The translations under genes were made by a program, and so were the position numbers. 34,625 nucleotides of DNA from Candidatus Uhrbacteria bacterium (GTDB lineage Bacteria; Patescibacteriota; Patescibacteriia; UBA9934; GWF2-40-263), in contig CAIMOJ010000076.1 of assembly GCA_903843045.1 (NCBI GenBank), positions 1 to 34,625 on the forward strand, read 5' to 3'. The first letter of the stretch is position 1. Each line of letters begins with the position of its first letter. The notes beneath the pieces are model-generated. The model made no database searches, had not been told where the DNA came from, and was given only the letters and a program-made list of their open reading frames with translations. Below are positions 7,940-32,209 of the stretch, piece by piece.

Positions 7940-7953
7940 GAGGGATTGAATGG

Positions 7954-7986
7954 AAATTGGATATCACAATTTGTGATATCCAATTT
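7954..7986. repeat. Palindrome P1: aaattggatatcacaa-t-ttgtgatatccaattt
   Basis: Perfect 16-bp arms around a 1-nt centre, 14 nt after the uvrA stop. Confidence 0.95.
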
Positions 7987-8018
7987 GATTTTAGGTCGTT
8001 TTGTCGCTGAGTACAGAT

Positions 8019-8055
8019 AGAAATTGGATATCACAATTTGTGATATCCAATTTCT
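8019..8055. repeat. Palindrome P2: agaaattggatatcacaa-t-ttgtgatatccaatttct, second copy of P1
   Basis: Perfect 18-bp arms around a 1-nt centre; the 33-nt core is identical to P1; lies upstream of the ORF6N gene. Confidence 0.95.
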
Positions 8056-18111: not shown

Positions 18112-19356
18112 ATGAGGCACCGGCTGTTTATCATCCTGATCGGCTCGATTCTCCTTCCGACCCCGTCGTGGGCTCTCGGAGGGGCGGTCTTTTCGCCGGA
18201 CGTTTCCACGGCGGCGGCCACGGTCGGCGAGCGGTTCTCGGTCAGCCTTCTCCTGGATCCGCACGGCGAGAAGATCGACACGGCCCGCGCGCTCGTCACG
18301 TTTCCTCCCGACCTCGTCCGCGTCGAGGGGGTGACGCTCGGGACGCTCCTTCCGCGCCAGGCTCCAGGGAACTCGTTCGACAATGAGGCAGGAACGGTCT
18401 CCGAGGGAGGATTTCTCCTTGGAAGCGCGGTCGAGTCGCAAGGCACGTTCGCGACGATCACGTTCAGCCCGCTGAAGGCCGGCACCGCGAAGATTTCCAT
18501 CGGAGGCTCCTCGAAGCTGATCGCGAACGGAGAGGAGAAGGGAACCGGCGCCTATGGCGAGGAGACGGTGACGATAGCCGACGCGGCCGCCGACACGTCG
18601 CCGACCATGGCGCTCAGCAGCCTTTCCCATCCGAGCCAGGACGCCTGGTACAGGACGAATGTGTTCGTCGGCGATTGGACCAGGCCCGACATGGGAACGG
18701 TCACCGGCTGGCTGACGGCCTTCGACCAGAGCCCGACGACCGATCCGAGCGGCAAGCTTTCTACAAGCATTCTGACCAAGACCATCGAGGGTATTTCCGA
18801 CGGCACCTGGTACTTTCACCTGAAGGGCGTCCTGACCGGGGCGACGTACACGCAAACGATCCATTATCGCGTCCAGGTCGACACGACTCCTCCGAACCCG
18901 ATCGCCCCGACGACCCCGCGTATCCGGTACTTGGAAGGGGAAAGCGCGCTGCTCGCGTTCGGAACGACGGACGAGACAAGCGGGATCGACCACTACGAGG
19001 TCTCATTGAATGACGGAGCGTATGAGACGGCGACGAGCCCGGTGGTCCTCAAAGACCTGAAGGTCGGCGACGCGTTCGTGCAGGTCAAGGCGATTGACCG
19101 GGCAGGGAACGCGACCTTCGGCAAGGCGGCGTTCCGAACGTACGCGAAGGACACGGTCCTCTCGGCGGAAGACACGGCCGCGAGGGACAAGGAGAACGCG
19201 GAGATCGCATCCCTCACGGATTCGCAACATTCGCAGCAATCCGTGTCATATGCAAAATTAGTAAGAAATTCGTTATTCGCAACCGCAGTCCTTGCAGGGG
19301 CTGGCATCCTCGCGGCAATGCGCCGTAAGAAACGGAAATCCATTTCAAAAAAATAA
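18112..19356 (+). CDS. Cohesin-like surface protein with Ig-like region, C-terminal TM helix and basic tail
   Basis: 'AVFSPDVSTAAATVGERFSVSLLLDPHGEKIDTARALVTFPPDLVRVEGVTLG...GTFATITFSPLKAGTAKISIGGSSKLIANGEE'; C-terminus 'LFATAVLAGAGILAAMRRKKRKSISKK'. Confidence 0.75.
   Translation: MRHRLFIILIGSILLPTPSWALGGAVFSPDVSTAAATVGERFSVSLLLDPHGEKIDTARALVTFPPDLVRVEGVTLGTLLPRQAPGNSFDNEAGTVSEGGFLLGSAVESQGTFATITFSPLKAGTAKISIGGSSKLIANGEEKGTGAYGEETVTIADAAADTSPTMALSSLSHPSQDAWYRTNVFVGDWTRPDMGTVTGWLTAFDQSPTTDPSGKLSTSILTKTIEGISDGTWYFHLKGVLTGATYTQTIHYRVQVDTTPPNPIAPTTPRIRYLEGESALLAFGTTDETSGIDHYEVSLNDGAYETATSPVVLKDLKVGDAFVQVKAIDRAGNATFGKAAFRTYAKDTVLSAEDTAARDKENAEIASLTDSQHSQQSVSYAKLVRNSLFATAVLAGAGILAAMRRKKRKSISKK
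19211..19284 (-). repeat. Solo half-element E3 of the E1/E2 palindromic family, in frame inside the cohesin-like CDS
   Basis: 18-nt exact match aattcgttattcgcaacc (19267-19284) to E1 right arm 2189-2206; inner box attcgcagcaat (19229-19240) at the same 44-nt offset as in E1; locally AT-rich with atypical codons (tta gta aga aat tcg tta). Confidence 0.75.
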
Positions 19357-28131: not shown

Positions 28132-28165
28132 AAAAGCCTGCCTGAGATTCTCAGGCAGGCTTTTT
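28132..28165. terminator. Bidirectional terminator between the convergent polymerase and DHH-family genes
   Basis: aaaagcctgcctgag-att-ctcaggcaggcttttt. Confidence 0.9.
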
Positions 28166-29284
28166 CGTGAGGCAGGCGACGATCTCCTTTTCGGCCTGGA
28201 CGATCGTTTTGTCGGGGAACGCGACGCGCACCTCCTCGCGGGTTCCCGTAGGCCTGAGCGCGGCGGTCAGCGCAAGAACGTCGGTCGGCCGCTCGGCGCG
28301 GATGATAGCCACGATCTCATGCGCGGCTGTCTCGTAGATCAGCGCGACGACCTTCGCGTCCGGCGTCGAGGCGATGAGCTCCTCGATCACGTCGGGCAGG
28401 TCGGCCTCCTCGGCGCCGGCATGGAGGAAGTCCTGCTGGGAGAGGAGCGTCCAGACGAACGACGACGCGGCGTCGACCTTGAGCCGGGCAAGCGCGCGGC
28501 CCCAGAGCCGGAGCGTCGGGACGGAGCGCGTGCGGTACAAATTGTGCACGATCGCCTCGCGCTTCGCGCCCTTCGCCACGAGCTTGCTCGCAGTCTGAAG
28601 CGTCTTCGGCGAGACATTCTTCGTCTTGAAGCTTTTCGTCTTCGAAATCATCCCGGTGAGCAGCGCGGTCACGACCTCCTCGTCGAGCAGGCCCGGCTCG
28701 ATCGCCTCCACGAGGTCGTGGACGACCTCGCTCACGGAGACCGCGGTGAGGTCGACGACGTTGAGCTGGCCGAAGTGCTCGTTCTCGGCGCGGTGGTCGA
28801 TATTCAAAATGGGCGTGCGATAGAAGAAGTCCGGATGGTCGGAGTACAGGTGCGCGCAGCTCTCGAGGTCGGCGGCGCCGAGGCAGACGATGAGGTCGTA
28901 GCGGTAGCCCGACGACGAGACGTTCAGGTCCTTCGCGTCCCAGAATCCTTTCTTCGGCGACAGGTGGATGATCAGCTTGTCGTCCTTCATCTCGTAGGTG
29001 AGCTCGTCGACCTTGGTTCGCGACGCGTCGATCTCAATGACGAACCGCCGCAGGTTCTCGAGAGCGGGGGAGACCTTCTCGTGGCCGGGGAGAAAATGGA
29101 GGTTCTTTGGGGTCGCGCCGTCGGCCGCCACGATGTCGGCCTTCTTGTCGAGCTTCTCAAGCACGCGCGCGAGGCCGATGGCGGAGGCGTACCCGTCCGC
29201 CCCGGCTGAGCGGGGAACGCAAATAAGCGGTCGACTCGACCGCTTGATCGCCTCCAAAATCTGTTGCGTTTCCCCAAGAGCCAT
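28151..29284 (-). CDS. DHH/DHHA1-family phosphoesterase-like protein (NrnA-like) with degenerate motifs
   Basis: 'NIDHRAENEHFGQLNVVDLTAVSVSEVVHDLVEAIEPGLLDEEVVTALLTGMISKTKSF' aligns by eye with the DHH motif III region; motif I region 'CVPRSAGADGYASAIGLARVLEKLDKKADIV'. Confidence 0.78.
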   Translation of the reverse strand: MALGETQQILEAIKRSSRPLICVPRSAGADGYASAIGLARVLEKLDKKADIVAADGATPKNLHFLPGHEKVSPALENLRRFVIEIDASRTKVDELTYEMKDDKLIIHLSPKKGFWDAKDLNVSSSGYRYDLIVCLGAADLESCAHLYSDHPDFFYRTPILNIDHRAENEHFGQLNVVDLTAVSVSEVVHDLVEAIEPGLLDEEVVTALLTGMISKTKSFKTKNVSPKTLQTASKLVAKGAKREAIVHNLYRTRSVPTLRLWGRALARLKVDAASSFVWTLLSQQDFLHAGAEEADLPDVIEELIASTPDAKVVALIYETAAHEIVAIIRAERPTDVLALTAALRPTGTREEVRVAFPDKTIVQAEKEIVACLTKKPA

Positions 29285-29367: not shown

Positions 29368-29499
29368 GGGCTGCTAATAACGTATGAGCTGCATATCTTA
29401 CAAATTGCTAGGGATTGCAACGAATGGTTCGGATGGAAAATATCCGTAGAAATATGTAGCAATTTGTAAGATATGCAGCTCATACGTTATTAGCAGCCC
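29368..29499. repeat. Long palindromic element E2: perfect 43-bp inverted arms (29368-29410 / 29457-29499), 46-nt centre
   Basis: gggctgctaataacgtatgagctgcatatcttacaaattgcta and exact reverse complement; inner box attgcaacgaat at 29414-29425 identical to E1, degenerate mirrored copy atttctacggat on the other strand. Confidence 0.92.
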
Positions 29500-29539
29500 C
29501 ATTGCCTCCGGCCATTTTTTCCCCTACACTGCCTACATT

Positions 29540-32209
29540 ATGGCAAAATCCGAAATCCCCAAGGCATACGATGCGACAAACTACGAGGACGGCATCTACG
29601 CCGCCTGGGAGGCGAGCGGCCTCTTTAACCCAGACAACCTGCCCGGCGACCGCCCCGAGGCGTTCTCCATCGTGCTTCCCCCTCCGAACGTGACCGGCAC
29701 CCTGCACATGGGGCACGCGGTGATGCTTGCGATCGAAGACATCATGGTGCGCTTCGCGAGGATGCGTGGCAAGAAGGCCCTGTGGATACCTGGGACCGAC
29801 CACGCGGCGATCGCCACCTCCACGAAGGTGGAGAACATCCTGTTCAAGACGGAAGGGAAGACGCGCCACGACGTCGGACGCGAGGATTTTTTGCGACGCG
29901 TGGAGAAGTTCGCGCAGGACAGCCATGACACCATCGTGAACCAGGCCAAGAAGATGGGCGCGTCGCTCGACTGGAGCCGCGAGGCGTACACACTCGACGC
30001 GAAGCGGAACCACGCGGTGAACGTCGCGTTCAAGAGGATGTACGACGACGGTCTCATCTACCGCGGCCACCGCGTCATCAACTGGGACCCGGTCGGTCAG
30101 ACGACGATCTCCGACATCGAGATCGTGTACAAGGAGGTGGAGGCGACGCTGTACACGTTCCGGTACGCGAAGGATTTCCCGATCGCGATCTCCACGACGC
30201 GCCCCGAGACGAAGGTGGGCGACACGGCGGTGGCGGTGCATCCGGACGACGAGCGGTATGCGGCGTTCATCGGGAAGACGTTTGAGAACATCCCGTTCGC
30301 AGGGACGACGATCTCGATAAAAGTCGTCGCGGACAAGGAGGTCGACCCGACGTTCGGTACGGGCGCGCTTGGCGTGACTCCGGCGCACAGCCTCATCGAC
30401 GCGGACATCGCGGCGCGGCATGGGCTGGCGATGAAGCAGGTGATCGGCGCGGACGGCCGCATGACGGTCGACGCGGGAACGCTCGTCGCGGGACAGACGA
30501 CGAAGGAAGCGCGCGGGTCCGTCGCGGCATGGCTTCGCGAGCAGGGACTGATTGAGAGGGAAGAGAAGACGATGCAGAACCTCGCGACCGCCGAGCGCTC
30601 GGGCGGCACCGTCGAGCCGATCCCGATGCTGCAGTGGTTCATGGCCGTCCGCAAGGAGTTCGAGCGCAACGGAAAGACCGTCACGATGTGCTCGATGATG
30701 CGCGACGCGGTCGAGTCGGGGAAGACGAAGATCGTCCCGGAGCGTTCAGAAAAGACTTTTTTTCAGTGGGCTGACAATCTCCGCGACTGGAACATCAGCC
30801 GCCAGCTTTGGTATGGACACCGCGTCCCGGTGTGGTATCGAAACGACGAGACGTTCGTCGGAATCGAGGCTCCGGAAGGCGACGGATGGACGCAGGACCC
30901 GGATACGCTGGATACCTGGTTTTCCGCGGGAATGTGGACGTTTACCACGCTTGGCTGGCCCGAGAAGACCGCCGACCTCGCGACGTATCATCCGACGTCG
31001 ATCCTCGAGACCGGATACGACATCCTGTTCTTCTGGGTCGTCCGCATGATGCTCATGACCACGTACCTGATGGACGAGGTCCCGTTCAAGCTCGTCTATC
31101 TCCACGGCCTCGTCCGCGACGAGCAGGGACGCAAGATGTCCAAGTCGCTCGACAACATCATCAACCCGCTCGACATGATCGCCAAGTACGGCGCCGACGC
31201 GACGCGTCTTTCGCTTGTGATCGGATCGACTCCGGGGAACGACTCGAAATTGTCCGAGGAGAAGGTCGCGGGATATCGCAATTTTACGAACAAACTGTGG
31301 AACATCTCACGGTTCATTCTGTCGTCCGTCGACGACAACCACGTTCCCCCTCCTGATAGGCAGGAGGGGACAGGGGTGGTCGTCGCGTCGACTCTCGCCG
31401 ACCGCTGGATCCTCTCTCGCCTCGATGCGGTCGTCGCCTCCGTCACGCGCAAGCTCGAGGCGAACGAGCTCTCCGCCGCGGGCGAGGAACTGCGGGACTT
31501 TACGTGGAACGACTTCGCGGACTGGTATCTTGAGATCGCGAAGGTGCAAAAGGGTTCGGAGGTTGAGAGGGACGAAGGTTCGAAGGGGACTGATGCGATT
31601 TTGATGACCGTCCTCGAGACTCTGATGAAGCTCTGGCACCCGTTCATGCCGTTCGTGACTGAGCAGATCTGGTCGTCGTTCAAGGGAACGACGCTCATGG
31701 TCGAGGCGTGGCCGACCGTCGCAGGGAACTGCGACGAGTCCGTCGAGCGAGACTTCGATCTCGTCCGTGACGTGACCACCGCGATCCGAACGATCCGTTC
31801 CGAGCGCCGCGTCGAGCCGAAGGCCGAGATTACCGCGTCGCTCGGCGTCGCGGACCGTCGCGAGCTTCTCGTCGACCAGGCGTCGGTCATCTCCCAGCTC
31901 GCGCGCCTCTCCAGTCTCTCGTTTGACGGCGCATTACCGGACGCCGGAATTCCGATCGTAAACGTCCAGGTCGCATCGATCCTCGTGTCCGTGGAGACTC
32001 CCGGGACGACGGTCGATCCTGAGAAGGAAAAAGCCCGTCTCGAAGCGGAGCGCGATCAGCTCGATGCCTACGTCGCGTCGACCGACGCCAAGCTCGCGAA
32101 TGCCGAGTTCGCGTCGAAGGCTCCCGAGAAAGTCGTCGCGGGAATGCGCGCCAAGCGCGACGAGGCGAAGGCGAAGCTCGACGCGATCCTGACTCAGCTC
32201 TCGTCCTAA
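29540..32209 (+). CDS. valS: Valyl-tRNA synthetase
   Basis: 889 aa; 'PPPNVTGTLHMGHAVMLAIEDIMVRFARMRGKKALWIPGTDHAAIAT', 'QWFMAVRKEF', 'GRKMSKSLDNIINPLDMIAKYGADATR', C-terminal coiled coil. Confidence 0.97.
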   Translation: MAKSEIPKAYDATNYEDGIYAAWEASGLFNPDNLPGDRPEAFSIVLPPPNVTGTLHMGHAVMLAIEDIMVRFARMRGKKALWIPGTDHAAIATSTKVENILFKTEGKTRHDVGREDFLRRVEKFAQDSHDTIVNQAKKMGASLDWSREAYTLDAKRNHAVNVAFKRMYDDGLIYRGHRVINWDPVGQTTISDIEIVYKEVEATLYTFRYAKDFPIAISTTRPETKVGDTAVAVHPDDERYAAFIGKTFENIPFAGTTISIKVVADKEVDPTFGTGALGVTPAHSLIDADIAARHGLAMKQVIGADGRMTVDAGTLVAGQTTKEARGSVAAWLREQGLIEREEKTMQNLATAERSGGTVEPIPMLQWFMAVRKEFERNGKTVTMCSMMRDAVESGKTKIVPERSEKTFFQWADNLRDWNISRQLWYGHRVPVWYRNDETFVGIEAPEGDGWTQDPDTLDTWFSAGMWTFTTLGWPEKTADLATYHPTSILETGYDILFFWVVRMMLMTTYLMDEVPFKLVYLHGLVRDEQGRKMSKSLDNIINPLDMIAKYGADATRLSLVIGSTPGNDSKLSEEKVAGYRNFTNKLWNISRFILSSVDDNHVPPPDRQEGTGVVVASTLADRWILSRLDAVVASVTRKLEANELSAAGEELRDFTWNDFADWYLEIAKVQKGSEVERDEGSKGTDAILMTVLETLMKLWHPFMPFVTEQIWSSFKGTTLMVEAWPTVAGNCDESVERDFDLVRDVTTAIRTIRSERRVEPKAEITASLGVADRRELLVDQASVISQLARLSSLSFDGALPDAGIPIVNVQVASILVSVETPGTTVDPEKEKARLEAERDQLDAYVASTDAKLANAEFASKAPEKVVAGMRAKRDEAKAKLDAILTQLSS
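31342..31382 (-). repeat. C-rich palindromic repeat R1-a embedded in valS
   Basis: Reverse complement cgaccacccctgtcccctcctgcctatcaggagggggaacg matches 32215-32255 at nearly every position; encodes in frame HVPPPDRQEGTGVV. Confidence 0.9.
31549..31590 (+). repeat. GGTTCGAAGG-type repeat R2-a embedded in valS
   Basis: aaaagggttcggaggttgagagggacgaaggttcgaaggggac; shares cgaaggttcgaaggg with argS 33663-33708; encodes KGSEVERDEGSKG. Confidence 0.7.

Follow-up and report, generated by a model that had tools for sequence, protein, structure and literature searches.

Inverted repeats in a Candidatus Uhrbacteria genome share their arms with the gene of a predicted GxxExxY nuclease

The hairpin-forming element E2 in a Candidatus Uhrbacteria genome (G000) is probably a gene-less doublet copy of a repeat system that resembles REPIN/RAYT and is run by an unrelated nuclease, GxxExxY. 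Repeat arms of the same family surround the GxxExxY gene of this genome, and in a sister species (G003) nuclease and arms have switched together. E2 and a second element, E1, were described in a stretch of 34,625 nucleotides, referred to here as the window, and were compared with copies elsewhere in the genome and in the related genomes G001 to G005.

E2 comprises positions 29369–29499 of the window (131 bp, GGCTGC...GCAGCCC) and contains no ORF of its own. It lies between a forward-strand ORF at 29540–32209, which we take to encode valyl-tRNA synthetase (valS) from its HMGHA and KMSKS motifs, and a divergent reverse-strand ORF at 28151–29284, probably a DHH-type phosphoesterase, that is kept upstream of valS in relatives. 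A predicted valS promoter region, read by consensus on the forward strand (29500–29539; TTGCCT, 17 nt, TACACT), starts directly after the element. As the initial annotation had claimed, the outer arms of the left half-element (29368–29410, forward strand) and the right half-element (29457–29499, reverse strand) are perfectly complementary over 43 bp, and the inner words are mirrored, with ATTGCAACGAAT at 29414–29425 on the forward strand and ATTTCTACGGAT at 29442–29453 on the opposite strand. Folded as ssDNA, E2 is predicted to reach −55 kcal/mol, whereas its dinucleotide-shuffled versions have −12.1 ± 2.6 (z = −16). The Rfam search of the whole window at gathering score returned tRNAs only, so that a known RNA family was rejected for both E1 and E2.

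The element is present only in G000. G001, G002 and G003 lack it at the corresponding orthologous position, and the region before valS in G004 showed no such element either. Removing 29369–29499 yields GCGTCAAGCATTGCCTCC, which is the exact undisturbed junction of relative G005, and comparison of the two sites shows no target-site duplication. Since the relatives do not carry E2 and the G005 junction matches the empty site exactly, sequence comparison indicates that E2 is a recent insertion just upstream of valS. At a second empty site, the element at G001:C54:3036–3205 corresponds in G000 to TAG directly followed by CCCTATG, again without duplication. At the E2 site of G003 (L184) the valS upstream region holds GATCCGGGA, flanked by GCGTCAAG and CATTGCC. 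The GGATCC formed in this way may be a footprint left by excision of a GGATAC...GTATCC element. Two further candidates were discarded: a Tn3-like TIR, suggested by the GGGG start, because the empty sites show no 5-bp duplication, and an integron attC site, because reading of the sequence revealed neither a pair of boxes in the required orientation nor a cassette array.

E1 (2044–2209), located between a secG-like ORF (2239–2613) and ORF 244–2034, both on the reverse strand, has 41 perfect outer bp. The outer box and the identical inner 12-mer are indeed common to E1 and E2, and the 25 nt reported to differ between them do differ, but they can be aligned with each other, allowing a 1-nt indel, as a single homologous half-element. 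The difference between E1 and E2 is that of two subfamilies and not of private arms for each element: subfamily A comprises the E1 type (TTGCGAATAACGAATTAGTTACTTATTACACATATG...) and subfamily B the E2 type (CTGCKAATAACGTATGAGCTRC...), and both align over their full length. E1 and E2 are just two among about 18 pairs in the genome, and comparing those two alone was therefore misleading.

With up to 3 mismatches allowed, the 1.28-Mb genome contains about 50 occurrences of the outer 18-mer, 27 forward and 23 reverse; its reversed control gave zero matches in the same genome at the same tolerance. With a model of the half-element, which is about 57 bp long, 48 strong copies were found in G000. They make up a dispersed family, specific to this lineage, of about 18 inverted pairs and 12 solos, with copies in intergenic positions; the partner of C3:4746 was taken from this genome-wide model search. 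Lengths of the inverted pairs are mostly 116–203 bp and reach 386 and 520 bp in the longer ones. Each half-element is a polarised array of short words and ends in ACGAAT or ACGTAT. The 386-bp composite on C4 and its counterpart G001:C37 enclose inside their arms a 49-aa ORF that is conserved in both species, and no transposase was found in either interior. At a lexA-like site (L045, L088) a 49-aa ORF (MSTIALRHHAFTFAF...) conserved in G000 and G001 lies between the arms, its stop codon adjoining the arm or falling within it. Several half-elements, solo or paired (L035, L039, L040, L042, L044, L032), come directly after a terminator T-run and a small hairpin, the loop of which is TACG, CACG or TGCG and the stem of which varies in sequence (e.g. 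CGGGCTACGGCCC, GTAGCTACGGCTAC). A third, weakly related pair (GGGTTACGAAGTACGAAT...) was seen in G000 at about 828–920 of L043, and the window contains at 7953–8054 a near-perfect 34-bp palindrome, AAATTGGATATCACAATTTGTGATATCCAATTT, in two direct copies about 67 bp apart.

The arms of E1 and E2 had been read in the initial annotation as covarying, which was taken to imply structural selection, arm-to-arm gene conversion or inverted duplication of a half-element, and as unlike those of a MITE with shared repeats. The observation itself is real; its stated reading is mostly wrong. Arms are common to copies, the sequence being the same over 34 nt in 21 of 47 halves, and mismatched arms occur in other copies: outer-arm identity drops to 0.81–0.86 in three B elements and to 0.76 in the hybrid C4:13589–13974, which combines an A arm with a B arm. 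Outer arms of subfamily A are 99.5% alike within an element and 96.7% between elements, those of subfamily B 89.2% and 86.7%, respectively. Pairing within a subfamily hardly exceeds random re-pairing, with 0.995 observed versus 0.993 for A (p = 0.09) and 0.892 versus 0.870 for B (p = 0.07) in the outer 37 columns, and over the whole half-element the observed pairing was no better than random (p = 0.98 for A, 0.85 for B). Re-pairing over all pairs gave p = 0.000, a value which reflects the A/B split alone.

Six aligned B elements were checked for covariation. In these, 90.1% of cells are paired, 26 of 43 pairs are invariant, 6 of 43 carry changes in both arms, and broken cells are numerous; 8 of 500 shuffles reached the observed covariation score, and such a score can come from relatedness alone. 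The proposed covariation thus shrinks to a weak signal, and the alignments suggest that arm-to-arm coupling within elements is weak at most. A hairpin of RNA or DNA kept by selection, with compensatory mutation of the arms, would agree with the very stable fold of E2 and with the B pairs changed on both sides. We nevertheless regard it as quite improbable, as arms are shared between copies, pairs are mismatched, a hybrid exists, pairing is close to random and neither E1 nor E2 matches Rfam. Solo halves, which have no partner arm to compensate for, also change their arm type at orthologous sites.

The longer pair of 520 bp (G000:C40:6388–6907) has arms of subfamily A that enclose an ORF whose product matches TIGR04256 (GxxExxY) with 98 bits (cut-off 35) and PF13366 (PDDEXK_3) with 99 bits (cut-off 22). 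It is the only GxxExxY gene of G000. Contigs were searched with a profile built from a closer subset of GxxExxY relatives. The catalytic D...ExK, E and Q are invariant among 16 relatives, and the AlphaFold model (pLDDT 96) has its best PDB fold match in Cas4 SSO0001, followed by MGME1 and alkaline exonuclease. A PDB sequence search with the GxxExxY profile gave nothing convincing, whereas the fold search did match; Padloc returned weak Cas4/DRT resemblance only. Judging from the model, GxxExxY is a small PD-(D/E)XK protein with a predicted fold of the Cas4/RecB kind, closest to that of Cas4. G001 carries an equivalent gene inside arms at the same place, and the gene of G003 lies inside its own arm type. 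G002 has neither a GxxExxY gene nor matches to the half-element model. G004 has two GxxExxY genes, the arms of which differ from the half-elements that the model detects in this genome. A GxxExxY gene with B arms was found in neither G000 nor G001, and subfamily B, to which E2 belongs, having no nuclease-bearing copy is the weakest link of the proposed model.

Comparison of orthologous sites shows that arm type differs between sister species. At the gspF-like, dnaJ-like and C59 sites the subfamily differs between G000 and G001 with identical boundaries. Of the initial annotation this leaves the hint at conversion, from arm to arm or from copy to copy, and not the structural selection offered beside it. 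The E1 site is occupied by A arms in G001 and by different arms in G003; in G002 and G004 it is empty. At the syntenic GxxExxY locus, G000 and G001 are 89% identical; the G003 protein is 46% identical to that of G000 and the DNA 54%, with neighbouring genes at about 80% DNA identity. The arms of the G003 gene are of another, new type (GGATACGAA...), to which the arms at the G003 sites C45 (the E1 site), C4, C19 and C58 also belong; these match the gene-bearing G003 copy in 29–33 of 40 nt versus 19 of 40 nt for the G000 arms. A solo half of the new type sits in G003 at the same gene end as G000:C3, and decayed A-like relics remain at C60 and C7. Since inner parts are preserved in solo halves, a switch by conversion is favoured over renewed insertion at the same sites. 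In the window, a solo half-element on the reverse strand (19229–19284; half-element model, 48.5 bits) is positioned in frame within the C-terminal linker of the forward-strand ORF 18112–19356. In the orthologs of G001 and G003 (L312, L313) this position is filled by an unrelated sequence of exactly equal length, which suggests that the solo half replaced existing sequence and was not inserted. One might also regard the repeats as protein-binding or architectural sites serving nucleoid, chromosome or replication, with GxxExxY incidental. The word arrays resemble arrays of binding sites and lie in intergenic positions, but their presence differs between sister species and their type is linked to that of the nuclease, which makes this explanation scarcely credible.

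The association extends beyond this lineage. Within the phylum, 45 of the 287 genomes contain GxxExxY. In the phylum set the inverted-arm score has a median of 21.5 compared to 10 for cross-paired flanks (p = 4e-19), 29 of 38 loci being above the 95th percentile of cross-paired flanks and 9 of 38 not. In Bacteroidota and other phyla (79 loci) the median is 23 versus 10 for distant flanks (p = 2e-17). The arm words are arranged in tandem with a period of 8–10 and have a strong polarity running inwards (ACGAA 80 vs 1 and TGATT 220 vs 20, the second count being that on the opposite strand). Similarity of arm words correlates with that of the protein (Mantel r = 0.68, n = 64; within the phylum 0.40, n = 27; both p = 5e-4), whereas control flanks 700 nt away give r = 0.10 for the set of 64 and 0.08 for the phylum and leave the partial correlation unchanged. 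Coupling of arm type to nuclease type across bacteria is thus well supported by sequence comparison. Hairpins with GxxExxY-type arms and no gene are also common in Bacteroidota genomes.

These data bear on the possibility that the elements are ordinary MITEs, i.e. TIR derivatives moved by a conventional transposase encoded outside the assembly, with GxxExxY as a passenger. Like MITEs and Correia elements they are short, gene-less and intergenic and have terminal inverted repeats shared between copies. The assembly consists of 76 contigs and is 96% complete, so that an insertion sequence could be missing, and catalysis by GxxExxY is a prediction. A genome-wide search of G000 for PF01797 (Y1_Tnp), the sole transposase search at this scale in the draft assembly, gave zero matches, and no transposase with matching ends was seen among the repeat copies read. 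Unlike MITEs and Correia elements, they have arms that are word arrays and two empty sites without target-site duplication. Given as well that arms correlate with the GxxExxY sequence across phyla and that gene and arms switch jointly in G003, we consider a conventional MITE unlikely.

TIGR02436 four-helix-bundle genes (L150–L179) also lie between inverted arms, which are built of different words with a period of 7. G000 has four TIGR02436 genes, three of which were read (C23, C27, C69) and have inverted word-like flanks. The intervening sequence (IVS) of Coxiella 23S rRNA likewise has tandem GACAGAT heptamers, inverted repeats and a four-helix-bundle (S23) protein (PMC4990558). The elements described here share with such IVS a layout in which a short ORF is enclosed by inverted ends that carry short words in tandem. 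They differ in protein and words and are intergenic rather than located in rRNA, and E2 has no S23p ORF. An RNA-level element of this kind, in which the transcribed hairpin is the unit that spreads through RNA and the ORF is secondary, would account for the same architecture with 7-nt words around S23/IVS genes and for the Coxiella IVS. It is very doubtful for E2, which is located upstream of the promoter; no link to a reverse transcriptase was seen, and the predicted fold of GxxExxY is that of DNA nucleases.

The closest likeness is to REPIN/RAYT, where hairpin doublets coexist with decayed singlets and each repeat class has one enzyme gene (PMC3116915, PMC3686654). Here, too, inverted hairpin-forming doublets occupy intergenic space and the enzyme gene is flanked by its own repeat class. 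Singlets are more diverged in subfamily A (doublets 0.990, solos 0.901), an extra divergence not seen in subfamily B (0.874 versus 0.876). Syntenic RAYT genes are flanked by different repeat classes in related strains (PMC3686654), and the switch at the GxxExxY gene between G003 and G000 follows this pattern. The enzyme, however, is of the PD-(D/E)XK and not the HUH/Y1 transposase type, and the halves are about 57 bp of tandem words, whereas a REP is a palindrome of 20–40 bp with a GTAG-type foot, which is absent here. Having no Y1 transposase and a different repeat anatomy, the G000 system is therefore not a member of REPIN/RAYT. The foldback transposons of eukaryotes (FB, Galileo) have long inverted arms of short tandem subrepeats. 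The arms in G000 are likewise built from short tandem subrepeats, but the elements are bacterial and far shorter and their nuclease is unrelated to the FB and Galileo transposases.

In the GxxExxY-driven system that we propose, the nuclease would recognise the word array of the arms and cut hairpins that are extruded or single-stranded. Cutting would drive insertion of doublets without target-site duplication as well as copy-to-copy conversion of arms, with host repair placing copies of doublets at new positions and copying arms onto existing elements. In this scheme, the solo halves would represent remnants. The nuclease by itself offers no obvious activity for strand transfer, and joining would be left to host repair or replication.

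The coupled nuclease/repeat system appears to be undescribed. Literature on CPR MITEs, PDDEXK_3, bacterial foldback elements and S23 with inverted repeats, with subscription papers largely outside its scope, contained no description of a linkage between nuclease and repeat, and in 5.39 million open-access full texts GxxExxY is mentioned twice, both times in passing. We tentatively suggest, with a little less than even confidence, that GxxExxY genes and in parallel S23/four-helix-bundle genes represent unrecognised classes of prokaryotic foldback elements. In these, a small protein would recognise inverted polarised word arrays, spawn gene-less hairpins and, upon a change of nuclease, enforce concerted replacement of arms throughout the genome.

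GxxExxY is a curated family named merely for its motif, and the link to cognate inverted repeats provides it with a testable role. If true, the arrangement would be a second independent invention of that found in REPIN/RAYT, here with a Cas4-like nuclease. How rRNA intervening sequences move is still open (PMC4990558), and the parallel with S23/four-helix-bundle genes bears on this question. The sister species allow the joint switch of an enzyme and its genome-wide repeats to be followed.
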